From assembly GCF_022809355.1 (NCBI RefSeq), contig NZ_JAKZMM010000047.1, positions 1 through 32,489 on the forward strand: 32,489 nt of DNA. Reading direction: 5' to 3'. The notes below the pieces were generated by a model. The model saw only the letters and a program-made list of their open reading frames with translations, did not search any database and was not told the origin of the DNA. Every line of letters starts with the position of its first letter. Positions within the stretch are counted from its first letter, which is position 1. This DNA comes from Parabacteroides faecalis (GTDB lineage: Bacteria; Bacteroidota; Bacteroidia; Bacteroidales; Tannerellaceae). Positions 1,592-27,187 of this stretch are shown piece by piece. The translations under genes were made by a program, and so were the position numbers.

Positions 1592-2134
1592 CTATAGATA
1601 CTTTTCATCCAAGAACTTTCTGATTTTCTTCAATGCTATTGTAATCTGGTTCTCTACAGTCTTTTCTGAAATATTCATATTTTCGGCAAGCTCCTTATTG
1701 CTTAACAAATCATATCTGCTTTTAGAAAAAATTTCACGACAACGCTCTGGCAATAAAGAAACAGCTTCTTCCAATAGATTAGATAACTCCTGTACCTCAA
1801 GAAGAGAAAAGACATCATCTTGAGCAGCATCAAAATCAGGTATCTCTTCCAAATATGCCTGGTCTTTTTTAGAGCGAAAATAAGAAGCTACCTTATTTCT
1901 GGCAGCCTGAAATAAATAAGCTTTTAGACTTGTCTGGATATCCAGATGTTTTCTATTTTCCCACAACGAAGTAAAGATATCCAGAACAAGTTCCTCTGCA
2001 ATTTCCGGATTATGTATAAAATACTGAATAAAAGTCTTTAACGGCTCTGCATAGGAATAGAATAAACGTTTGAAAGCTTTTTGATCACTTTCTTTTAACA
2101 AATCTAACAATATATTGTCTCCATCTTTCCCCAT
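1592..2134 (-). CDS. ECF-type RNA polymerase sigma factor (no adjacent anti-sigma)
   Basis: This 180-residue sigma-70 family protein has only regions 2 and 4, as in extracytoplasmic-function sigma factors. Region 2 spans about residues 21-88 (FKRLFYSYAEPLKTFI, AEELVLDIFTSLWENR). Region 4 spans about 116-174, with LLPERCREIF leading into the helix-turn-helix NKELAENMNISEKTVENQ. It would direct RNA polymerase to a specific promoter set. In Bacteroidetes such genes usually sit next to a FecR anti-sigma and a SusC gene. Here the next gene downstream is the DUF6057-like membrane protein, which may play the controlling role (inference). A good housekeeping promoter lies upstream at 2192-2221. Confidence 0.9.
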   Translation of the reverse strand: MGKDGDNILLDLLKESDQKAFKRLFYSYAEPLKTFIQYFIHNPEIAEELVLDIFTSLWENRKHLDIQTSLKAYLFQAARNKVASYFRSKKDQAYLEEIPDFDAAQDDVFSLLEVQELSNLLEEAVSLLPERCREIFSKSRYDLLSNKELAENMNISEKTVENQITIALKKIRKFLDEKYL

Positions 2135-7010: not shown

Positions 7011-9389
7011 TTATTTCGGATCATAATACTTATCACCTTCAGCAATACTACAATTGCTCTTCAAATTTTCCTCCAAGCGAACAGCATACTTACGTAATTG
7101 CCCCTGATGTTTCTCACAAGGGATTAGATCTTTCTCAATATCACCGCGCGGCGTTTCCTTTAAACGCTTGCGTCCTTCTTTCAAGATAGATACTGCTTTC
7201 TTATATTTTTCCTTATCATTCCTGATTACATCCAGACAAGGACTTTCCTCCGGACGGTCGAATGAGATCTGAGCCGGTTGAGTACGTGTCCAACTATTCA
7301 GCCGACCGAAATCAAGGCCTGTCAATTCAGAAAGTTGTTTCACTTCCTCATCTGTCAACGGACAACGTCCTGCCCAATGATCACTGAATGATGATTCATA
7401 TACCGGATAATATACTCCGTTCAAATCCATCCACGTATAAAGAATTTCCTTTTCTTTCTGTGATAGACGAATACTTCCGTGATCTCCATCGATAATTTCG
7501 GTCAACTTACTGGCATGGCTTCCCCAAGAATAGGCTTGCTGAATTGCAGCAGGTCCGCCACCAACCAAATGAACAGCTTTCGATACGTACAAATTAATAT
7601 ACGCAGCGTTGAAGAACGGATTCTTATCACGCGCCAAAACCAACTTCTTCCGATTATTACGATCGAAATCGTGGCACTTCATGCAATGTTTGTCGAGAAT
7701 CGGCTGTACTTCTTCCATAAAGGAGAATTTATGTGGTTCCTCACCCATCCAAGGCTGTAACTTGTTGGGTTTACGATTCAGAGCTATCGGACGCTGGCCG
7801 CCCATAGGGACCGTTGCCAAACGGTCTTCATGACAACCAATACAACCATTTACCTCGCCCGGCATCAAAGAAACACCGCTACGCATAGACTGGATCATTT
7901 TCTTATCCTTATCGAGTAATTGGAAATAAACATGCTTACCCGCCGGAACCATAAAACTGGCAGAACCATCTTCTTCTACCGGTACTTCTCCTAAGATTTG
8001 CTTATTCTCGAAGCTATGCCAATTCATACCCGGAGCTTGTTCGCCTTCGCCAAACCAACCGCGTACTGTCCATGTCCTTTTCTCCGGAGATTCAACCACA
8101 CGCAAATATTTCACACTACCAGGCTTCACTCCCGCCATGTGCGTTCCCTCATATACATTCTCCACGTAAAACTGACCTTCTTCAGCGGTGAAGTTACGCA
8201 TCATTGGAATTGAAACCGGTTTCTGGCGCGCCTCTACCAACATCGGATCAAATAAACTCTGGTTTCCTTCCAACAGCAGCTCTTCCGTTCCGTCACGATT
8301 CACATAATAAATTCCCGATTTAGCATCTGTAATGTTCCATCCGCCCGGTTTCACCCAAATTGTTCGAGATACCAAGAAGTTATTTTCATCCAACGGGAAA
8401 GGATCTTCATAGAAGGTACCCACTCCTTTGAAAGAATCCAAGTTTCCGTTTCCTACCCACTTCGCTGATTCCTTTGGCCAAATATCCACCAAAGCTGCTT
8501 CATTATCCACTCCTTTTCGCCGATCAATAATGGCCATCGCACCCCAAGGCCGTTCGTGACAAGAAGTGAATGTACATACAACCAAGTCTGAATTCGGGAT
8601 CTGTCGCCCATCAATCACACCACCCGGTGAAGCAGTATTGTTTCCATAATAGATAGCATGCTTCGTTCCATCCGGATTCACGACCCATAATCCTTGCGCA
8701 TCGCCGAAGTTACGGTCCACATATTCCCAACGATCGTATAAGACACGACCATCACTCAACAACGAGGCATGACCTTCAAACAAGGTACTCACACCTATCT
8801 GTGTAATATTCGCTCCATCCGCTTCCATCCGGAATAGATTTCCCATGATATGACGGTTACACATACAGTATTTAGGCTGACGGGTAGAAGTAAAGATAAT
8901 ATTCCCATCCGGTAAATAAATCGGATCAATATCCGACACCCCTTCCGCAAACGTCAATTGCCGCAAACCCGAACCATCTATGTTCATTTCATACAAATGA
9001 TAAGAATCCTTTGGATGCTGACGCATTGAAAATAAAACCTTCTGTCCGTCGAACGAGATTTCCGGATCACGCACAACGCCTTCAGTTGTTTCTATCAATG
9101 TTCGGATTTTACCCGAATCCACATCATATACACGCATCGCTCCACCTGGAGCAAAACTCGCCTCATTAATCTCACCCGGCTGAAATAAAGTTGCCGTATT
9201 GTGATGATCAGGAGCATACTGCTCACGTTCGATATACAGGATTTGTTTTCCCTTCAAGGCTTCACGTGCCTTTTGTGAAAGGACAATCTGCTTGGCCGGC
9301 AATCCATTGGAAAAAGTCTGTGCCATAACGGGAAAAACGCCCGACGCACATACCGCCAAACAACACGATAAGAATAACGAATGTTTCAT
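7011..9389 (-). CDS. HzsA-related periplasmic di-heme beta-propeller protein
   Basis: This is a 792-residue exported protein with a signal peptide (about 1-24, cleavage after VMA). Residues 45-390 hold TolB/PD40-like propeller repeats (for example DPEISFDGQKVLFSM, DGNIIFTSTRQ). A C-terminal part has two CxxCH heme c sites, C516-H520 (CIGCH) and C569-H573 (CMKCH). A CMCNRH cluster at 175-180 may bind metal. It resembles proteins annotated as related to the alpha subunit of hydrazine synthase, which are common in Planctomycetes and found in Bacteroidetes. Hydrazine synthesis is not implied here. Its place between an alcohol dehydrogenase (10-base gap) and a GH2 glycosidase suggests a redox step on a carbohydrate in the periplasm (inference). 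Heme attachment would require cytochrome c maturation. The reaction is unknown. Confidence 0.75.
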   Translation of the reverse strand: MKHSLFLSCCLAVCASGVFPVMAQTFSNGLPAKQIVLSQKAREALKGKQILYIEREQYAPDHHNTATLFQPGEINEASFAPGGAMRVYDVDSGKIRTLIETTEGVVRDPEISFDGQKVLFSMRQHPKDSYHLYEMNIDGSGLRQLTFAEGVSDIDPIYLPDGNIIFTSTRQPKYCMCNRHIMGNLFRMEADGANITQIGVSTLFEGHASLLSDGRVLYDRWEYVDRNFGDAQGLWVVNPDGTKHAIYYGNNTASPGGVIDGRQIPNSDLVVCTFTSCHERPWGAMAIIDRRKGVDNEAALVDIWPKESAKWVGNGNLDSFKGVGTFYEDPFPLDENNFLVSRTIWVKPGGWNITDAKSGIYYVNRDGTEELLLEGNQSLFDPMLVEARQKPVSIPMMRNFTAEEGQFYVENVYEGTHMAGVKPGSVKYLRVVESPEKRTWTVRGWFGEGEQAPGMNWHSFENKQILGEVPVEEDGSASFMVPAGKHVYFQLLDKDKKMIQSMRSGVSLMPGEVNGCIGCHEDRLATVPMGGQRPIALNRKPNKLQPWMGEEPHKFSFMEEVQPILDKHCMKCHDFDRNNRKKLVLARDKNPFFNAAYINLYVSKAVHLVGGGPAAIQQAYSWGSHASKLTEIIDGDHGSIRLSQKEKEILYTWMDLNGVYYPVYESSFSDHWAGRCPLTDEEVKQLSELTGLDFGRLNSWTRTQPAQISFDRPEESPCLDVIRNDKEKYKKAVSILKEGRKRLKETPRGDIEKDLIPCEKHQGQLRKYAVRLEENLKSNCSIAEGDKYYDPK

Positions 9390-11655: not shown

Positions 11656-13503
11656 TCACCACCCAGGATTTTGTACTAAATTGTGATTCACTGTAACATC
11701 TACATTATTAATCGGATGCAAATATTGCTTTCTACTAAATACAAATGGACGACCAACTAAATGGATATCTTTATAAAATTCTTCATTTGTTGCCCCCACA
11801 GAATTAAGTCCTCTCATCCCATCTGCATCAGGTCTAAAAAAATCTTCTGCTTTTTTCCAACGCTTCAAATCATACAACCAATGTCCCTCAAAAATAAATT
11901 CAATCATCCTTTCTCGATGAATAATTTCAATCAACTTTTCACCTGTGGCATTTCCAAAAGCTGTATTAAAATCTGGAATTCCTGCTTTCTTTCTAATTGC
12001 ATTAAAATAATCTAAAGCTTTTCCATCTAACTTTCCTGTATATTCAGCATAACTTTCCACATAATTTAAATATAATTCTGCCAAACGAATAATCGGATAA
12101 GGATAAGTTTCTATACTAAAGGTTGTATTAGTTGCTTTATTATCTGGATGTATACCTTTTTTCACTGCATAACCAGAATACAAATGATCTGAATTTAAAT
12201 TTTTACAACCATTTTTCTCTCCATACTTCATATACAAAGTTACTGTATCACTATTAATTTCATACTGACCTCTATCAAAACCTATACAAGCATAAAAACG
12301 TGGTTCTCTATTTCTATGCAACTGAATCGTAGAATCTCCATCTGCTATTTTAAAGCGATTTTCCCAATCAAAATCAGGATCATCTTCCGCTGGTATACCT
12401 TTTTTTGAATAAAACATTTCTACAGCTCGCAATGTTGGACCATACCCTCCATATGGAGGCATTGCTCCATCTCGAAATCCATTTTGAGTAGTAACCGTCT
12501 GATAATATATATCAGCAATACCCTCTTTTGTGCCACTATATCCCCATAACAATTCTTTATTCCACTTATCCAACATGGTATAACGAGTATTGGCTACTGC
12601 CTGATCAAAATCACTTAAAGATCTTTCACTTTTATATTGATAAAGACCATATCCTTCTCCCTCAGCCATATCTATTGCTTTTTGGGTTTCCTCCATAGCT
12701 TTTTTCCATTTTTCTTTATCGAACGACTGACTAATCAAAGGCTCTCCATCCTTATTCTTAAAGTCCGCATAAAATTCACTATTCCCATTAAATAATGGAC
12801 TTGCTGCAAATAAATACATACGCGATTTTAAAGCCTGGGCAGCTATTTTAGTAGCTCGACCATAATCAGCTGAAGATACTGTGGTAGGAAGGTCTTGCAT
12901 GGCTTCATCAAACCATGTTGCAATTTGTTCCACACAAGCATCATATGGACTACGCTTCAAATAAAAATCATCGCCACTTCCATTTAAAGGAATTTCTTCT
13001 TTAACCAAACAGACTGGTCCATAATTTTGCAAGATAAGATAATGGAAATATGCAATTAGAAATCTCACCTCAGCTTTCCATATTCTTTTCCGTTCATCAA
13101 ACTGCCCTTGAGGCATACTAACAGGAACAACATTATCTATACGATTTAGAAATGTATAACACTGCCGTATACCTTGATATAAATTACGCCAATAATCTAT
13201 TACAGGATCTGTTGTACTATACAACCCTTGTTGCATTCTCAAGTTAGGCCAATAAGTAAGAGCAAAATGATAAGATCCAACAAATTCATCCGAAGTTAAC
13301 CATGAATAATTACTATTCTTATAATCCAAAAAATTAGGAATATACCCATAGCAACTATACACAAAAGCTTCTGCAGTATTCTCATTTTTAAATGCATCAT
13401 CTAATGTTGCCGTATCATCTGGAACAATATCCAAATAACTACAACTTGCAGATCCTAATAACAACACAAAACATGTTACTATATTTAATATTATTTTTTT
13501 CAT
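11656..13503 (-). CDS. SusD/RagB-family outer-membrane glycan-binding lipoprotein
   Basis: This surface lipoprotein has 615 residues. The lipobox LGSASC puts the lipidated cysteine at C21. The N-terminal SusD-like region is TPR-rich (ENTAEAFVYSCYGYIPNFLDY; WKAEVRFLIAYFHYLILQNYGPVCLV) and the C-terminal SusD_RagB domain includes YPYPIIRLAELYLNYVESYAE and IHRERMIEFIFEGHWLYDLKRW. Such proteins cap the SusC barrel and deliver oligosaccharides to it. The gene starts 20 bases after susC ends, forming the usual pair. Like susC it is visibly AT-richer than the IclR operon downstream. The glycan cannot be told from sequence; neighbouring glycosidases suggest a rhamnose-containing polymer. Confidence 0.95.
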   Translation of the reverse strand: MKKIILNIVTCFVLLLGSASCSYLDIVPDDTATLDDAFKNENTAEAFVYSCYGYIPNFLDYKNSNYSWLTSDEFVGSYHFALTYWPNLRMQQGLYSTTDPVIDYWRNLYQGIRQCYTFLNRIDNVVPVSMPQGQFDERKRIWKAEVRFLIAYFHYLILQNYGPVCLVKEEIPLNGSGDDFYLKRSPYDACVEQIATWFDEAMQDLPTTVSSADYGRATKIAAQALKSRMYLFAASPLFNGNSEFYADFKNKDGEPLISQSFDKEKWKKAMEETQKAIDMAEGEGYGLYQYKSERSLSDFDQAVANTRYTMLDKWNKELLWGYSGTKEGIADIYYQTVTTQNGFRDGAMPPYGGYGPTLRAVEMFYSKKGIPAEDDPDFDWENRFKIADGDSTIQLHRNREPRFYACIGFDRGQYEINSDTVTLYMKYGEKNGCKNLNSDHLYSGYAVKKGIHPDNKATNTTFSIETYPYPIIRLAELYLNYVESYAEYTGKLDGKALDYFNAIRKKAGIPDFNTAFGNATGEKLIEIIHRERMIEFIFEGHWLYDLKRWKKAEDFFRPDADGMRGLNSVGATNEEFYKDIHLVGRPFVFSRKQYLHPINNVDVTVNHNLVQNPGW

Positions 13504-13523: not shown

Positions 13524-16500
13524 TTAAAAATTCATTTGTAAACCAATTGTACCTACTCTCAAATTCGGATATTTCATACCATTTCCGCTACCTAACTCCG
13601 GATCCCAGTAATTAAATGGTGAAAATGTCAATAAATTTTCCCCTGAAATAAATAAACGCATCCACTTATATGAATAACCTATTTCTGCACTCTTTAAACG
13701 TAAAAAAGCACCATTCTTTAACCAAAAAGTAGATGTCTGATAATTATTATGAGTACTAGTATTTACCATCATCCTAGGATAACTTGCATTAGGATTTTCC
13801 GGAGTCCAATAATCATCTGCTATAAATTGGAATAAAGTAGATTGATTGGAGTCAAACGGATGAATATTTTCCATCATAATACTTGTATTAGCAACCCCTT
13901 GGAAAAATACAGAAAAATCCCAATTTTTATATTGAATTGATCCTCCAAAACCATACACTATTTCAGGAACAGTTGGTTTGCCTATAATTTTCCTATCATT
14001 TCCATCTATCTTATTATCTCCATTCAAATCTGCATACTTAATATCTCCCACTGAATATGAGGAAAAAGTCTGTTCTGGGCTATTAGCTATATCTTCTTCA
14101 TCTTTAAAATATCCAATAGCGACCAAACCCGTATAACAATTTAAAGGTTTACCTATTTCTGTTCGATATTTCTCATTCTCTGGATATATCGGTTCATCTC
14201 TTTCTAGCAATTTATTTGCTGCATAAGTAAAATTTGCTTTTGCACTAACTGTTAAATCTTTATTAATAGATTTACTATAATCAATTGAAAAATCGACACC
14301 TCGATTTTTTACTTTACCTAAATTAGCATACGGACTTAATCCTCCTGTTATTCCTGTTTCAGCAGGAATCATCCTACGTTGCATAAAAATATCACTACGT
14401 TTTTCTTGGAAATAATCAGCTGTAATATTCAAAGAATTAAATAAATTCAAATCAAAACCGACATTGGTCTTAACTCCTTTTTCCCACTTTGCTCCATCTG
14501 CTCCATATTTCGTTATTAAGGCACCACTCATAGATGTCTGCCAATTACTTCCAAAAGTATATCCTTTTCCAGATAAATTCACAAAAGTTAGATATGGAAA
14601 ACGTGGATCTGTAAAAGAATTACCAACTAATCCCAAAGATCCTCGAATTTTTAAATTTGTAACAACATCAGTTAATGGTTTAAAGAATTTTTCGTTAGAA
14701 ATATTATAACCTAAAGCTACAGATGGGAAAAATCCAAATCGATGACCATCTTGAAAATTCTCACTTCCATTATAACCAAAATTAGCTTCTACCAAATAGC
14801 GATTATCATATCCATAAGTAACTCGACCCGCAAATCCTTGATTTCTTGTAGAAAGTGTTGCATAATAATCGCCTGGATTATTAACATTATACTCCCTTTG
14901 CAAGTACACAATCATAGCACCAACGTCATGTACTTCATTAAATGTCCGAGCATAATCTAGTGATGCTTGAATATTTAAATAACGATCTCCACCATTACTA
15001 GTACTAGTACTTAATGCTGTCTGCCCTTTAGTTAAAGCACGATACGTATAATCATAATCTCCATTTTCATTCTGTTCATAACTATCAACTGTATAATAAT
15101 AAGGAGTAAAACTCCGTACTACATTTGTTGTTGACCAATTTTTATATGAAATCTGCCCTTTTATTCTAAGACCAGGGGTTATAAATTTTAGATCTTGATC
15201 AATATCAAAACTTGTAATCACAGTTGACTCATCTCTATCTGAATAACCAGAAACCATTCTAGCATACGGATTATTATATCCATTTACACCACCAATACTC
15301 ATTGGACCACCTTCCACATTCCCAAATAACGTATGATCTTCTCCATTTCTGGCAGGAATAAATGGCATAAATAAAGTCGGAGGAGCCCAAAATATAGAAT
15401 TATAGAGTTCTGAAGTTCCTATCGATGTTCCAGCATAATTTAGGATCTGAGAATTAATACGTAAAGTCACCTTCGTTGTATTCGTTAATTGTGCGCCAAT
15501 ATTACCTTGAAAAGAGACTCTGAATTGATTAATATTATTATCAAATTTATTCAACGGATCACTTTTCAACATACCATTATCATTATTCAGACTAGCACTT
15601 AAAAAATAAGTGACTTTTTTCATTCCTCCACTTACATTCAGATTTGCACTTTGTGTTGTTGTAAAATCACGAAATAGGTAGTCATACCAATCCACATTAG
15701 GAAATACATATGGATTTAAACCCTTCTTCGTTCCTTCTATTTTTTCCTGACTAAAACGAGGCGTGGCATCTGGGGTACGTGTTAACAATGCAAAATTATA
15801 AGCATTCATATAGTCGACTCCATCCGCTAATTCTACAACTTGTGTTGGTGCCGTAAACGAATTCTGAACTCTTACATTAATCGTAGCACGTTCATTTTCT
15901 CGTCCATTACGGGTTGTCACCAGCATAACACCATTTGCCCCTCGAGCTCCATAAAGAGCAGTCGCTGTTGCATCTTTTAAAACAGAAAAATTCTCAATTA
16001 CTTCAGGAGAAAGAGCATTCAAATCTCCTGTAGATGCTTCTACACCATCAATAAAAATCAATGGAGAAGTAGGACCTGCAAATGTAGAAACGCCTCGTAT
16101 CCAGAAATTAGCTCCATCAGCACCAGGTTCTCCACTTCGTTGAACTGCCACAACACCAGCGATACGTCCTGCAAAAGAATTGCTCAAAGAGGAAGAAGGG
16201 ACCTTTAATTCCTTAGGTTTTACAGTCTGGACAGAACCAACAACACTTGCTTTTTTCTGTGTTCCATACCCAACAACTACCAACTCATCTAATGCTTCCG
16301 AGTCTTCTTTCAACGATATTGATAACTTTGTCTGATTACCAACTTTTATCTCTTGACTTGCAAACCCGATATAAGAAATAACCAATGTTGCATCTTTATC
16401 CACATCCAAAGAGAACTTACCGTCCATATCTGTAATGGTTCCACTCGTTGTGCCCTTTACCATGATATTTGCTCCAATCACGGGCATTCCGGTCGGATCC

Positions 16501-16910
16501 AACACAACACCTGTAACCGTATTCTTTTTCTGTTGTACAACAGCTACAACGGGAGCGACTTCTGTCATTTCCTTCCGCTTTGAAAGAAGTATCTGCCGAT
16601 CATTGATGGTATACATAACATCTGTATTCTTGAATAACTGTTCCAAGATACTTTCCACCCGTTGATCTTTCAGATTAACAGATACTTTTCTATTTACATC
16701 AATCGTTTCATCTAAATAGAAAATGATAAATTCGCTATGTTGTTCGATATAATCAAATACTTCCTTGACGGATTGATCTTGAACGGAGATCGTGAAGGTC
16801 GTTTTTTGTGAATAACTTTCTGTTGCAAAACCTGCCTCCACTCCAAGTATTAGACATAATGTACTTAGCTTCAATGCTCTAAATATTTTTGGTTTTAAAT
16901 AGATATTCAT
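13524..16910 (-). CDS. SusC/RagA TonB-dependent transporter with STN signalling domain
   Basis: This outer-membrane importer has 1128 residues. After a signal peptide (about 1-30) comes a secretin/TonB N-terminal (STN) domain (about 57-110, SVKEVFDYIEQHSEFIIFYL). A carboxypeptidase-like beta-sandwich follows (about 130-203, TVTGVVLDPTGMPVIGANI), then the SusC signature ELVVVGYGTQKKASVVGSV (209-227), the plug (to about 345) and a 22-strand barrel ending in aromatic F1128. The STN domain is the part that contacts FecR, so this transporter both imports a glycan and reports its presence to the FecR/ECF pair just upstream. A 123-base leader separates it from fecR. It carries a strong hairpin and the predicted antisense RNA described separately. 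Confidence 0.96.
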   Translation of the reverse strand: MNIYLKPKIFRALKLSTLCLILGVEAGFATESYSQKTTFTISVQDQSVKEVFDYIEQHSEFIIFYLDETIDVNRKVSVNLKDQRVESILEQLFKNTDVMYTINDRQILLSKRKEMTEVAPVVAVVQQKKNTVTGVVLDPTGMPVIGANIMVKGTTSGTITDMDGKFSLDVDKDATLVISYIGFASQEIKVGNQTKLSISLKEDSEALDELVVVGYGTQKKASVVGSVQTVKPKELKVPSSSLSNSFAGRIAGVVAVQRSGEPGADGANFWIRGVSTFAGPTSPLIFIDGVEASTGDLNALSPEVIENFSVLKDATATALYGARGANGVMLVTTRNGRENERATINVRVQNSFTAPTQVVELADGVDYMNAYNFALLTRTPDATPRFSQEKIEGTKKGLNPYVFPNVDWYDYLFRDFTTTQSANLNVSGGMKKVTYFLSASLNNDNGMLKSDPLNKFDNNINQFRVSFQGNIGAQLTNTTKVTLRINSQILNYAGTSIGTSELYNSIFWAPPTLFMPFIPARNGEDHTLFGNVEGGPMSIGGVNGYNNPYARMVSGYSDRDESTVITSFDIDQDLKFITPGLRIKGQISYKNWSTTNVVRSFTPYYYTVDSYEQNENGDYDYTYRALTKGQTALSTSTSNGGDRYLNIQASLDYARTFNEVHDVGAMIVYLQREYNVNNPGDYYATLSTRNQGFAGRVTYGYDNRYLVEANFGYNGSENFQDGHRFGFFPSVALGYNISNEKFFKPLTDVVTNLKIRGSLGLVGNSFTDPRFPYLTFVNLSGKGYTFGSNWQTSMSGALITKYGADGAKWEKGVKTNVGFDLNLFNSLNITADYFQEKRSDIFMQRRMIPAETGITGGLSPYANLGKVKNRGVDFSIDYSKSINKDLTVSAKANFTYAANKLLERDEPIYPENEKYRTEIGKPLNCYTGLVAIGYFKDEEDIANSPEQTFSSYSVGDIKYADLNGDNKIDGNDRKIIGKPTVPEIVYGFGGSIQYKNWDFSVFFQGVANTSIMMENIHPFDSNQSTLFQFIADDYWTPENPNASYPRMMVNTSTHNNYQTSTFWLKNGAFLRLKSAEIGYSYKWMRLFISGENLLTFSPFNYWDPELGSGNGMKYPNLRVGTIGLQMNF

Positions 16911-16917
16911 ATCTTTG
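16888..16917 (+). promoter_or_regulatory. Plus-strand promoter across the susC start codon
   Basis: On the plus strand TTTG (16888-16891) is followed by 18 bases and then TATCTTTG (16910-16917), an exact match to the Bacteroides -33/-7 arrangement. It overlaps the susC ATG (16908-16910) and points away from susC into its leader. It would start a transcript near 16923 that ends at the hairpin with T-run at 16964-17002. Confidence 0.6.
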
Positions 16918-16922
16918 TATTG

Positions 16923-17002
16923 ATTTTACAGTTAATACTTTTATTAGCGTAAATGTTTCTTCGGGCCGATCAATATGGGGGTATTGTTCGGCCTACTTTT
17001 TT
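16923..17002 (+). ncRNA. Predicted cis-antisense sRNA of the susC leader (DonS-like)
   Basis: An antisense RNA of about 80 nt is predicted from a consensus plus-strand promoter (16888-16917) and a Rho-independent terminator (hairpin 16964-16993, six T at 16997-17002). It is wholly complementary to the fecR-susC leader, running from just before the susC start codon towards fecR. The position, orientation and size match the cis-encoded PUL sRNAs of Bacteroides exemplified by DonS in B. fragilis, which repress their susC homologue. Base pairing would cover the susC translation initiation region or its upstream leader. The 5' end is estimated from the -7 box. It would be the only plus-strand gene in the window. 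Confidence 0.62.
16964..17002 (+). terminator. Intrinsic terminator on the plus strand (antisense to susC leader)
   Basis: The arms GGCCGATCAATA and TATTGTTCGGCC pair over 12 positions with a single internal mismatch around a six-base G-rich loop. CCTAC is then followed by TTTTTT on the plus strand. On the minus strand the same hairpin lacks a T-run, so it should not stop the fecR-susC transcript but could form in the susC leader. Confidence 0.7.
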
Positions 17003-17033
17003 GGTATTAGATTGTTCTTATTTCATAAGCATT

Positions 17034-18236
17034 TCAATTTAAAGGTTCATACTTAATAATTATTTGTTCATGATCATGTTCTACTTTAATTGGAGCCGCT
17101 TTGGATAAATTCTCCAAAACATCGTCTACTTGTTCTGTCAAATCCAATTTACCACTGCAGTTTAAAGCTCCTACTTTTTCATCACACACAATGGATACTG
17201 CATAATAGCGAGACAAACGCTTGAAAAGAACAGATAATTGTTGACCAGCAAATTGATAATACCCGTTTTTCCAAGAGATATAATCTGTGGCATCCACCTC
17301 TTTTATGGAAGTTTCTTCCGTTTGTTTATCATATTCATATAATTCGTTTGGAGCCAATACTTCTGCCGTATGTGCCTGCGACTGTACTTCCACCTTTCCA
17401 TTTACCAAGACAACCTGTTGCTGATTGTCTTCAGGATAAGCACAAACATTGAAACTGGTTCCTAATACTCGAACTGACATTTGTCCTGTCTTTACATAAA
17501 ATGGTTTGTCAGGATTCCGTGTTACCTCCAAATAAACTTCGCCATCCACATAGATTTCTCTTTTATCTCCTTTAAATAAATGTGGATATACAACTTTAGT
17601 CGATGAATTAACCCAAAGCTTTGTTCCATCTGATAAGGTTAAAAAAGAACGTTTTCCTGCCGGAACAATCAACTTATTCAATTGGACTTCATCTTCGTTC
17701 TTATGCTGGACGGATTGCTTCCGTATACTTTCTGAATTGACGCGTACTTCACCTTTTTCATCATAAGAAATTTGACTTTCCGCTTCGGATATCAATACTT
17801 TCTCCTCATTCGAGAAGACTAACTGAACTTCATCCTGTTCCTTTTCCGCCGGTAGATCTGCAATGATCGTTTGATAATCAATTTCTTTTTCCGGTAATAA
17901 ATAAGGTATTGTCAAGGCTAGAACGAGAATAGCCGCAACAGCTGCCGCCACACCATACCAGAATAACTGGAATCGTTTCTTTTGCTGATTTTCCCGTTGA
18001 ATCTTATTCCAAAGGTCCGATACTTCCGATGCCGGAAGAAGTGGACGACTTACATCTTGCCGGAAACGGTTCATGAGCATACGAGCCATCCGTATTTCTT
18101 TTGCCAACGACAAATCTGTCCGTTCCAAATCCAACCAAAAAAAACGTGTTTCTTCCGTTGGATGCAATTCGGAATGGATGAAGAAGTCATCATTCAACAA
18201 TTGTTCTGCTGTATATCCGGTATAGTTCTTATTCAT
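17034..18236 (-). CDS. FecR-family anti-sigma factor
   Basis: This inner-membrane anti-sigma regulator has 400 residues. An N-terminal cytoplasmic region (1-88) would hold the sigma factor, followed by a single membrane span at about 91-113 (LFWYGVAAAVAAILVLALTI). The periplasmic FecR domain spans about 190-290 (VPAGKRSFLTLSDGTKLWVN, GEVYLEVTRNPDKPFYVKT, VRVLGTSFNV). A C-terminal DUF4974-type domain lies at about 330-396 and would receive the signal from the STN domain of SusC. It lies 68 bases after the ECF sigma gene and 123 bases before susC, the standard order of a transport-sensing PUL operon. All expected domains are present. Confidence 0.95.
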   Translation of the reverse strand: MNKNYTGYTAEQLLNDDFFIHSELHPTEETRFFWLDLERTDLSLAKEIRMARMLMNRFRQDVSRPLLPASEVSDLWNKIQRENQQKKRFQLFWYGVAAAVAAILVLALTIPYLLPEKEIDYQTIIADLPAEKEQDEVQLVFSNEEKVLISEAESQISYDEKGEVRVNSESIRKQSVQHKNEDEVQLNKLIVPAGKRSFLTLSDGTKLWVNSSTKVVYPHLFKGDKREIYVDGEVYLEVTRNPDKPFYVKTGQMSVRVLGTSFNVCAYPEDNQQQVVLVNGKVEVQSQAHTAEVLAPNELYEYDKQTEETSIKEVDATDYISWKNGYYQFAGQQLSVLFKRLSRYYAVSIVCDEKVGALNCSGKLDLTEQVDDVLENLSKAAPIKVEHDHEQIIIKYEPLN

Positions 18237-18304: not shown

Positions 18305-18889
18305 TCAAAAATCAATAAAAAATTTTTCCAGACAAACAAAACACAGAAATAAGAACAAATCTCCGCACGCTTCGCGTATTTTTTTCAGGGAACGCTGAAT
18401 CAAGTTTTGGGCCGACTGATAATTCAAATCCATCAATCGGCATATATCTTCCATAGGTAACTCTTGGACAAAACGGTAATACATAATTTCTTTCTGACGA
18501 GGTGTCAGAACTGAAAGCATCTTTTGTACCTGATGAGTTTCATTATGCAAGGATTCGTCTTCAATAAATTGGTCTTCCACACTCATTTCTGCAAGGAAAG
18601 GAATCTCTTCTTCTATGGAATCATACTTCTGGCTACGCAGTAAACTCCTACAAATATTATGTTTCAAGGAAACCAGCAAGTAGGTTTTAACTTGACAGGA
18701 TACCTCTAAATGGCTCCGATTGGCATACAGATAGACAAATAGATCCTGAATACAGTCTTTCACCAGCTCTGTATCCAAAGTAAAGCACAGCCCATATTGA
18801 TACAGGTCTTGTACGTATTCTTCGTAAAGACTAGCATAAGCCTTATCATCACCTGCCATAAACCGATTCCACTTTTCTATAGGCTCCAT
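18305..18889 (-). CDS. ECF sigma factor of the SusC/FecR system
   Basis: This 194-residue extracytoplasmic-function sigma factor has region 2 at about 18-85 (YASLYEEYVQDLYQYGL, VKDCIQDLFVYLYANR) and region 4 at about 122-173 (LTPRQKEIMYYRFVQEL; helix-turn-helix MEDICRLMDLNYQSAQNLIQ). It should be held by the FecR protein encoded next and, when released, drive susC/susD. The last 18 residues (DLFLFLCFVCLEKFFIDF) are strikingly hydrophobic for a soluble sigma factor and may take part in membrane or FecR contact. That role is inference. A clear housekeeping promoter lies at 18924-18954. Confidence 0.93.
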   Translation of the reverse strand: MEPIEKWNRFMAGDDKAYASLYEEYVQDLYQYGLCFTLDTELVKDCIQDLFVYLYANRSHLEVSCQVKTYLLVSLKHNICRSLLRSQKYDSIEEEIPFLAEMSVEDQFIEDESLHNETHQVQKMLSVLTPRQKEIMYYRFVQELPMEDICRLMDLNYQSAQNLIQRSLKKIREACGDLFLFLCFVCLEKFFIDF

Positions 18890-24527: not shown

Positions 24528-25622
24528 CTATCGGGAACATTCTATCTGATAACTACCCGACTCTAATTCCAAAACTTCTTTGCCTTGCGATGGCTGACCA
24601 TTTACACAAACAGATTCAGCCGGGAATGGCAGAGCAACGGATGCCGAAGCACCAACCGGTATTTGCACATCCAATACGAAAGAAGCCTCTTTCTTTTCCC
24701 ATCTGACCTTCAACAAACCATAAGGTGTATCTTTGGATGCCTGAACCCACGAAATATCATTTACCACCTGAGGTTTAATCCAGATATGCTTGTAGCCCGG
24801 CTTACTTTCATCCGGCATGATTCCAGCTAATGCCTGATAGAACCAGGCACCAATTCCATTATAACAATTATGAATATGGCTACGTTCTCCATTCCAATGC
24901 TCCCAAGTAGTAGTTGCCCCGTTATCCAACATATACAAATAACCCGGATAATCTCGTTTCTTCAGCATCTGATACATCCATTCGGCCAGACCATTCTTAA
25001 CGGCCCATTCGGTTAATACCGGAATGCCAACCAAACCTGTTGCCAGATGTCCCTGGAAACGGTTAGCCGTCACTTCATACAAAGTCTTCAGGACTGTCTC
25101 CTTCAGGTTGTCCGGTGTGACTCCAGCCAACATCGGATACACTAAATCAATTTGTGTCCCGCTGGCATAAGTATTTCCTTTCGCATCATAGAAAGTCTCC
25201 TGTATCCGTTTCGTCAGCGCATCATACTTTGCTTTATAACCACGACTATCATCCGCTTTATTCAGCAAAGAAGCAATTTTACTCATGGTCTGGTAACAAA
25301 CCGCAATATAACAGTTATCTACTAAATCAACAGACAACGGATTTGTCTGATCAATACCAACCGGCGTTGCCCAATCACCCAAATACCAGTTTCTATAAGA
25401 AGTATCCGGCCACTTCTTCAACAAACCATCTACAGTATAATGAGCCACATATTCCAACCATTGCTGCATATACGGATAATAACGGTCCAATAATCTCCGG
25501 TCTCCATAGTTCAGATAGGTCTGCCAGGAAGCCGTAATAATAAAACCCACCAGAACGGACCACCACCCGCTGCATACGGATTCGGAGCTGTATGAGGCAG
25601 ACTTCCGTCTTCCCGCATACAA
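24528..25622 (-). CDS. GH78 alpha-L-rhamnosidase, C-terminal part (frameshifted)
   Basis: This is the second half of the GH78 gene that begins at 27187. Only from about residue 26 of this frame (GFIITASWQTYLNYG, base 25548 downward) does it read as rhamnosidase; the first 25 codons are out-of-frame sequence. It carries the rest of the (alpha/alpha)6 catalytic barrel, including the conserved E of TTTWEHWNGERSH that corresponds to the proposed general base region, and the C-terminal beta-sandwich. Joined with the N-terminal part by one extra base, the protein would be about 886 residues, normal for GH78. Without correction this half is probably not translated, or only by reinitiation. Confidence 0.8.
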   Translation of the reverse strand: MYAGRRKSASYSSESVCSGWWSVLVGFIITASWQTYLNYGDRRLLDRYYPYMQQWLEYVAHYTVDGLLKKWPDTSYRNWYLGDWATPVGIDQTNPLSVDLVDNCYIAVCYQTMSKIASLLNKADDSRGYKAKYDALTKRIQETFYDAKGNTYASGTQIDLVYPMLAGVTPDNLKETVLKTLYEVTANRFQGHLATGLVGIPVLTEWAVKNGLAEWMYQMLKKRDYPGYLYMLDNGATTTWEHWNGERSHIHNCYNGIGAWFYQALAGIMPDESKPGYKHIWIKPQVVNDISWVQASKDTPYGLLKVRWEKKEASFVLDVQIPVGASASVALPFPAESVCVNGQPSQGKEVLELESGSYQIECSR

Positions 25623-27187
25623 TCAGCCCATGACTGCATCCAGTTCATATACAAAGGACTGAGGTTAAACATGGTCTGCACCGTAGGAGTTGAAGCATTA
25701 CCGTCTCCACCATAACCCAATCGTTCAATTTGCGGACAATCTACCATATATCCACCCAATGTCAGACAGCGCAAGGTATAGTGAATCATATCATGAATGG
25801 CATTCAAATCCTTATCCGAACAAGCGAAGAATGATTCCCCACTATAATTGGTATGTACTAATGAAGCCGTAATTGCCGACAAAGCCGGAGCTTCTTTCAG
25901 ATTCGTCAGTTTCAGATAACGATAGGCATGATAATTGAATTTATTGGAAAAGACTTCAGCCGAATCAGCACCGGAAGCTATATAATAATCTTCGTACAAA
26001 TGATCCCGGAATTCCCCTTTATCATCCAGGAAGTCACAATAACTGATCCGTATTTTCTGTCCTTTCTCTAATGGAGGAAACTGTATTTTCGTCCAGCCTG
26101 TCAGATTTGTCCCCAAATCATAAATCCAGGCTGAATCACCGGATGCTTTACAGGTGAGCGGATGTAAATGTTCTCGTATGCCATTCAGTTCAGCCATCTG
26201 AGGAGAAACCTTATGTAAAGGAATATCGGCCAAGACTGCTGCATTCCAATCAACGGAATTCAGTATCTTCCTATCCAAAGCAGGCAATACTCGATCAGCC
26301 GAGATTTCTTCTCCTCCAAACTGCCAAGGCCGCCACGTACCCGTAGAAGCATAACCACTTTCACGCGTTTTCCAAGTAGAATCTGTAATCAAGCTCGTTC
26401 TCCACTCACCATTTTCAAACTCTTCCAACTGAGCTCGAACAAACGGACCACCATTCACTACGCCCGGAAGTCCATCCTGATACCAACCTTTCCCTAACCA
26501 AAGAACGAAATCATTCTCTCCTTTCTCCAATAAACCAGTTACATCATACGTAACACTCAAAGACCGCTTATCAAATTGAGATACAGCCGGAGTCAAAACA
26601 GCGTCACCAACCTTCTTCCCATTCAGATAAACTTCGTGATACCCTAAAGAATTAACATGCAAGAAAGCCTTTGTTCCTTTTTGATTCCACTGAAAATGTT
26701 TCCAAAGTAAAGGCGACTGCGGTTTCCCTGAAAGCGTATCACTTCCAATATAAGAAGCTTTCCAGTCAGACGGATGTAATAATCCAATACCAAAACAAGC
26801 CGTCTCACTCCAGTCGGAAGCCTTATCATTGCCATCCCAAACACGAACCTTCCAGTAAACAAACTCCTTTGAAGCTAATTCATTTCCCTGATACAAAACC
26901 CAGGCAGATTCCGGGCTTTCAACTTTACCGGAATTCCACAAATCAGCCTTCTCTTCTGTCAATAAATCTTCATCAGTTGCTACCAGAATCTGATAAGCCG
27001 ACTGACAAAGGCCATTATCTTTCGCTTCAAGCTGCCAGCTCAAATACGGTTTCGTATGATCAATCGCCAAAGGATTAATCAACTTCTCACACTGTAACTC
27101 CTTCACAATTAAAGTCGGATGGGAAGAACAGGCACCCAACACGGTTAAAAGGAATATACTTACCCAATAAATAATCGAAGTCTTCAT
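25511..27187 (-). CDS. GH78 alpha-L-rhamnosidase, N-terminal part (frameshifted)
   Basis: This lipoprotein has the lipobox VLGAC and C20. It would remove terminal alpha-L-rhamnose from glycans. Domain order is a fibronectin-like N-terminal domain (25-135), rhamnosidase N and beta-sandwich domains (about 140-445), then the start of the catalytic barrel. The acidic cluster of GH78 is present: D483, E488 and D495 (VDCPQIERLGYGGD). The family reading ends at GGGPFWW (541-547), after which the frame leaves the family consensus and stops eleven codons later. The next in-family residues, GFIITASW, are in another frame, one missing G away at 25546-25548. It lies 35 bases after the GH106-like gene in one operon. 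Confidence 0.85.
   Translation of the reverse strand: MKTSIIYWVSIFLLTVLGACSSHPTLIVKELQCEKLINPLAIDHTKPYLSWQLEAKDNGLCQSAYQILVATDEDLLTEEKADLWNSGKVESPESAWVLYQGNELASKEFVYWKVRVWDGNDKASDWSETACFGIGLLHPSDWKASYIGSDTLSGKPQSPLLWKHFQWNQKGTKAFLHVNSLGYHEVYLNGKKVGDAVLTPAVSQFDKRSLSVTYDVTGLLEKGENDFVLWLGKGWYQDGLPGVVNGGPFVRAQLEEFENGEWRTSLITDSTWKTRESGYASTGTWRPWQFGGEEISADRVLPALDRKILNSVDWNAAVLADIPLHKVSPQMAELNGIREHLHPLTCKASGDSAWIYDLGTNLTGWTKIQFPPLEKGQKIRISYCDFLDDKGEFRDHLYEDYYIASGADSAEVFSNKFNYHAYRYLKLTNLKEAPALSAITASLVHTNYSGESFFACSDKDLNAIHDMIHYTLRCLTLGGYMVDCPQIERLGYGGDGNASTPTVQTMFNLSPLYMNWMQSWADCMREDGSLPHTAPNPYAAGGGPFWWVLLLRLPGRPI
25546..25548 (-). other. Frameshift point in a G run of the GH78 gene
   Basis: The coding strand reads TTCTGGTGGGTTTTATT. 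Insertion of one G, making TGGTGGGGTTTT, restores PFWWGFIITASW, the pattern expected for the family. The lesion is therefore a single missing G in a short homopolymer. A sequencing or assembly error and a genuine mutation look identical here. Confidence 0.8.

Follow-up and report, generated by a model that had tools for sequence, protein, structure and literature searches.

A predicted DonS-like antisense RNA gene opposite the leader of a susC homologue in Parabacteroides faecalis

In this work, we asked whether the short interval between a fecR gene and a susC homologue of Parabacteroides faecalis carries, on the opposite strand, a gene for a small antisense RNA. The window is the whole stretch of DNA analysed, 32,489 nt long, and the minus-strand gene order at this locus is ECF sigma factor (18305-18889), FecR anti-sigma factor (17034-18236), susC homologue (13524-16910) and susD homologue (11656-13503), all assigned by Pfam. 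The susC homologue, the presumed target, encodes 1128 aa with STN, carboxypeptidase-regulatory and plug domains (Pfam) and a match to TIGR04056. DonS and other PUL-associated cis-antisense RNAs of Bacteroides were reportedly described by Cao et al. 2016 and Ryan et al. 2020, 2024. The DonS family comprises cis-antisense RNAs of 78-128 nt that lower susC homologues, and 52% of the cis-antisense candidates of B. thetaiotaomicron are said to have the canonical sigma-ABfr promoter (excerpts of PMC7366714). In the latter species, 32 PUL-associated antisense RNAs are annotated, both negative and positive correlations between antisense RNA and PUL were seen, and the function of such RNAs is said to need characterisation (excerpts of PMC10994844). 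For B. fragilis, antisense RNAs are reported for 15 PULs, according to a citing paper (excerpts of PMC9723704). The results below make it highly probable that the P. faecalis locus is a DonS-like, PUL-associated cis-antisense small RNA gene with a predicted product.

The predicted gene begins with a housekeeping-type -7 box, TATCTTTG (TAnnTTTG), at 16910-16917 on the plus strand. This box shares one base with the susC start codon (16910-16908, minus strand), its first T pairing with the A of the ATG. The 5' end of the antisense RNA was placed at 16921-16925 from the position of the box, and thus its extent (16921-17002, plus strand, about 78-82 nt) is a predicted one. Folding gives a 5' hairpin of 12 pairs at 16925-16953 and a predicted Rho-independent terminator at the 3' end of the RNA, with a stem-loop at 16963-16994 (-17.9 kcal/mol; 13 pairs, interrupted by one internal mismatch), which is followed by AC and a U-run of six T at 16997-17002. 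For the plus-strand 83-mer, the folding energy is -25.2 kcal/mol (z = -4.65), and none of 200 shuffles was equally good. Box, 5' hairpin and terminator follow one another in this order between FecR and susC, and the predicted RNA sits opposite the 5' leader of the susC homologue. A putative sense promoter of susC, AAC-N14-GCTTATG, lies at 17024-17047 on the minus strand and overlaps the fecR stop codon. It faces the box, so the predicted RNA would span the greater part of the susC 5' UTR: with a susC transcription start that we infer at 17014-17019, about 80 of the roughly 105 nt up to the ATG. The first-pass annotation had foreseen a hairpin with TTTTTT about 80 nt downstream of the promoter, which was borne out, and mentioned neither the 5' hairpin nor the facing motif (17047-17024).

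The junctions downstream of FecR genes in other Parabacteroides genomes were compared. The genus sample consisted of the 120 best-scoring listed FecR_C (PF16344) junctions and is not a random draw; the own genome was excluded and four entries near contig ends were skipped. Three junctions had no ORF (L120, L138, L190), leaving 117, in 50 of which the box stands at the same register (+7) to the ATG of the next gene, while any other offset occurred at most four times. In this and the order, phylum and other-genus samples, the gene after FecR is the longest open frame and was not in each case confirmed as SusC. The first in-frame ATG was taken as the start, so some starts are misassigned (by eye L052, L055, L069, L233, L238, L102 and L164). 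An antisense terminator 60-130 nt upstream was predicted in 47/50 boxed leaders compared with 13/67 box-less leaders (p=4e-17), and in 26/29 compared with 9/44 (p=3e-9) when one leader was kept for each of 73 clusters. This range was at first 60-125 nt, which gives 42/50 and 13/67 (p=1.4e-12), and was widened after hits were seen at 126-128 nt. Terminators on the sense strand were found in 2/50 boxed and 6/67 box-less leaders, and the box sequence CAAAnnTATG in none of 86 non-susC ORF starts of related loci. Thus, of the plus-strand promoter claimed earlier over the susC start, the -7 box stands and its register recurs. The 'consensus' -33 element, a TTTG at 16888-16891 (plus strand) with an 18-nt spacer, is unsupported and probably not functional. 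In the 50 boxed leaders of other genomes TTTG never occurs at 18 nt, and it occurs 19-23 nt upstream of the box in only five, so there is no -33 conservation and the TTTG is probably a chance match.

A smaller set of 29 FecR-homologue junctions from the genus, which includes the window and leaves out L066, whose fecR runs off the contig, gives the same picture. TAnnTTTG ends exactly 7 nt upstream of the susC ATG in 15 of them, an antisense terminator ends 84-101 nt upstream of the ATG in 14 of these 15, and 3 of the 14 box-less junctions have a terminator at 60-130 nt. Among 28 neighbours compared, SusC identity does not rise above about 46% (some 460 residues aligned). By score, the best SusC matches are L058 (46%) and L059 (43%), both of which retain box and terminator. 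Counting against the antisense gene, the first ATG carries no box in the eight FecR-closest junctions (L049-L056; SusC 39-44%), two of which have ambiguous starts. The layout of the family members is more alike than their sequence. Within the own genome, 30 of 40 SusC matches were considered; box and terminator were present at 5/11 adjoining FecR (two of the five need a downstream ATG as start) and at 1/18 others, one being startless. Two susC genes with box and terminator, L232 (own genome, C4:45552-48542) and L033, have their nearest FecR more than 3 kb upstream with other sequence between; an insertion has possibly split the FecR-susC pair there. Because the same promoter-terminator layout recurs at many related genes, the predicted RNA of some 80 nt is very probably a genuine regulator of sugar uptake and belongs to a type already known from Bacteroides.

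Of the 105 leaders in the genus sample that exceed 60 nt, 60 contain the heptamer GCYTATG, with or without a box, compared with three copies in 69 kb of coding DNA further downstream; the motif was, however, found post hoc in the same leaders in which it was then counted. AAC ends 13-15 nt before GCYTATG in 22 of 61 copies. In 27 boxed leaders, GCYTATG is located upstream of the point where the antisense terminator ends, at a distance of 33 +/- 7.5 nt, and its position correlates with that of the terminator end (r=0.80), a value that is favoured by the search, which covered only the sequence upstream of the terminator. We infer that AAC-N14-GCTTATG is the putative ECF promoter of susC. In the accessible parts of the literature searched, no published description of a GCYTATG-type ECF promoter was found. 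We hypothesize that sigma-ABfr, the housekeeping factor, would recognise the -7 box fused to the start codon of susC, and that the product, about 80 nt long, would form two stem-loops, of which the second is the terminator. This RNA would be complementary to most of the susC 5' UTR, and its 3' end would lie some 20 nt downstream of the proposed promoter of susC. As long as FecR/ECF signalling is off, it would anneal to leaky susC leader transcripts, and the pairing would hide an A-rich region needed by Bacteroidota ribosomes or make the duplex a target for cleavage. Once the ECF factor is on, vigorous transcription of susC would cross the antisense promoter and titrate the RNA, which would give a sharp on-switch. 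Transcription in this strain, the start sites, repression and the split between pairing and interference are conjectural parts of the scheme. The positive correlations between antisense RNA and PUL seen in B. thetaiotaomicron weigh against it. For a PUL antisense RNA of B. fragilis, repression is said to have been validated by over-expression.

The antisense gene could also work by transcriptional interference alone, with convergent promoters and no role for RNA pairing. The promoter-like motifs do stand face to face, with the antisense promoter in the path of susC transcription; the two RNA stem-loops would, however, be unneeded, and repression by one B. fragilis PUL antisense RNA is stated as validated (excerpts of PMC10994844), so that we consider interference alone unlikely. 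Less credible, and in our judgement improbable, is that the terminator is merely an insulator, which stops stray susC antisense transcripts before they reach fecR-ECF, the short RNA being a by-product. The position of the terminator, which varies with that of the sense motif close to the end of fecR (with the search bias given above, n=27), and the terminators without a box in 13/67 leaders agree with such a role, but the fixed register of the box and the structured 5' part are left unexplained by it.

The structure of the 5' part separates the antisense RNA gene from a reading in which box and hairpin are features of the sense strand. In that reading, the hairpin is a 5' UTR hairpin or attenuator of susC, and CAAAnnTATG is a translation-start context. 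Any inverted repeat folds on both strands, and the minus-strand leader (136 nt) itself has a z of -3.75. The 5' region between box and terminator was not selected for structure; its mean z is -2.73 in 47 boxed leaders compared with -0.05 in 54 leaders with neither feature, and z is below -2 in 66% of the boxed and 13% of the control leaders, the control regions being fixed at 48 nt and the test regions variable in length. The terminators were picked on the antisense strand, so the strand asymmetries of terminator and whole RNA are biased, and the 5' part alone is free of this bias. In 44/47 leaders and 27/29 clusters, its antisense form is more stable than its sense form, and the 54 control leaders show no strand bias (29 vs 24, not significant). 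An alignment of the 5' regions (A2) was too divergent for a pair count, and therefore the strand asymmetry of G-U pairs was used instead, with 138 in antisense compared with 32 in sense. In the homologous terminator stem (15 sequences), both sides changed in 10/14 pairs, with 33 cells compared with 10.2 in shuffles; of the five covariation measures, the number of further pair types alone fell short of significance (21 vs 18.7; 54/500). The RNAs of five relatives fold at z -3.1 to -5.8. Together, the 5' structure, the antisense-strand bias and the terminator covariation point to selection on an antisense RNA. A sense origin is further opposed by the U-run on the antisense side, by the rarity of sense terminators and by CAAAnnTATG, which is absent from the other starts and tied to the antisense terminator; we regard it as very improbable. 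As far as sequence comparison can tell, the box register, the terminator, the structured 5' part with its antisense bias and the facing sense motif are all supported, and the discrete, terminated antisense RNA of DonS-like geometry and length proposed in the first-pass annotation is favoured, within both Parabacteroides and Bacteroides, by the tests of register, co-occurrence, structure, strand and covariation.

A generic sigma-70/terminator scan found neither promoter nor terminator here, with five promoter-like sites compared with 5.9 in shuffled sequence. Such a scan misses the promoter because it is built for E. coli-type hexamers, the wrong type for the phylum, and misses the terminator probably because the internal mismatch defeats its simple model of a stem. 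Chance AT-rich matches combined with transcriptional noise would accord with that shuffled rate and with the caution that much bacterial antisense RNA may be noise (excerpts of PMC7366714), but this explanation has a negligible probability, being contradicted by the box register test, the box-terminator co-occurrence, the 86 other starts, the 5' structure, the strand bias and the covariation. Rfam gave no match at gathering score in the window or in 12 related loci, and nothing relevant at a permissive threshold (E<=10) for 16800-17200. The leader DNA matched itself and 23 weak short segments in its own 4.3-Mb genome. Across the genus, matches came from 2 of 38 genomes, namely itself and one 51-bp match over the fecR end and the sense motif; no plasmid match was found.

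Beyond the genus, the association was followed in one Bacteroides genome, probably that of B. fragilis NCTC 9343, the species in which the DonS family was discovered. There, 13/22 analysable junctions are boxed, and a terminator is present in 12/13 boxed compared with 1/9 box-less junctions; the GCYTATG heptamer occurs in just 7/22. Two further genomes of the same genus gave 4/4 vs 0/24 and 6/6 vs 1/10. S. detergens (25 of 49 matches used) gave 6/8 vs 7/17 (p=0.12). The junctions left out of these four genomes were 3/25, 2/30, 0/16 and 0/25, respectively; four duplicates among the fetched regions were set aside, and loci L287, L289, L291, L293 and L295 of genome G302 lie outside the analysis. 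By eye, five of the seven box-less terminator junctions of S. detergens have a shifted box, e.g. CAAATGTA. These leaders (L290, L292, L345, L333, L338) hold either CAAATGTA, which includes the ATG, or CAAAnGTAATG, and represent a putative variant of the ATG-welded promoter. A Bacteroidales sample of 23 junctions gave 7/9 vs 5/14 for the strict box (p=0.06) and 11/14 vs 1/9 for TAnnTTT (p=0.0025). Five of 28 were out, three with no ORF (L199, L214, L226) and two with long gaps (L209, L215), the latter two having neither box nor in-range terminator. A phylum sample of 29 junctions gave 4/4 vs 10/25 for the strict box (p=0.04) and 6/9 vs 8/20 for a relaxed one (p=0.18), and the box-terminator statistics across the wider phylum are weak.

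A SusC search in named genomes gave 12 related loci, seven of which match from near the N-terminus. Six of these have a resolved start and all six retain box and terminator: five Sphingobacterium loci with near-identical leaders, and P. bouchesdurhonensis, whose junction is probably the same as L059. The seventh (L018) and L012 have no ATG, and the remaining four of the 12 have no box at the conserved place, L017 among them with a weak terminator. The ECF-FecR-susC-susD order was confirmed for L010. A wider hypothesis, to which we would give roughly even chances, is that a phylum-wide switch of SusC importers exists from Bacteroides to Sphingobacterium, in which an ATG-fused -7 box makes a two-hairpin antisense RNA ending just short of a facing ECF-type promoter, and the winner of two convergent polymerases decides induction.

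The predicted RNA is like the DonS and PUL cis-antisense RNAs in lying opposite the leader of the susC homologue of a PUL, and its 78-82 nt fall within 78-128 nt (excerpts of PMC7366714). Of a sigma-ABfr promoter (-7 TAnnTTTG; TTTG near -33), the -7 box is present and recurs, and the TTTG, here 18 nt from the box, is present and not conserved. It differs in belonging to another genus, and the likeness is to DonS by description only, this RNA being predicted from sequence. FopS of B. thetaiotaomicron repress susC translation near the start codon and have a single-stranded 5' seed (R1) and many targets (excerpts of PMC11697453). Like FopS/GibS, the RNA predicted here is short and terminated; unlike them, its 5' part is the hairpin 16925-16953 and not an unstructured seed, it lies opposite its presumed target, and it has no Rfam match, although Rfam may lack a FopS model. 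The ATG-welded box, the two-hairpin layout and the facing sense motif were not found in the descriptions of PUL antisense RNAs as far as these were accessible, and Cao et al. 2016 may already report the box. Nor did we recognise a description of this layout, or of such RNAs in Parabacteroides, in the accessible parts of PMC7366714, PMC10994844, PMC11697453, PMC9723704, PMC10861873 and PMC12596196. PUL-associated antisense RNAs are a known kind, and what is added here is a Parabacteroides example and a sharper anatomical rule. From DNA alone, the rule is CAAAnnTATG at the susC start with an antisense terminator 60-130 nt upstream, often facing GCYTATG; it predicts candidates and gives exact positions to mutate. 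It brings Parabacteroides within the range of such RNAs and, on the strength of five related loci, Sphingobacterium as well, and the sense motif suggests the sites of the largely unmapped ECF promoters in these operons.

Elsewhere in the window, a second ECF sigma factor (1592-2134, minus strand) has neither FecR nor susC beside it within the window. A 792-aa protein at 7011-9389 (minus strand), amid sugar-degradation genes, matches the middle domain of the hydrazine synthase alpha subunit. Two overlapping minus-strand ORFs (24528-25622 and 25511-27187) make up one alpha-L-rhamnosidase in two parts with the 6-hairpin domain divided, which suggests a frameshifted gene or an assembly error.
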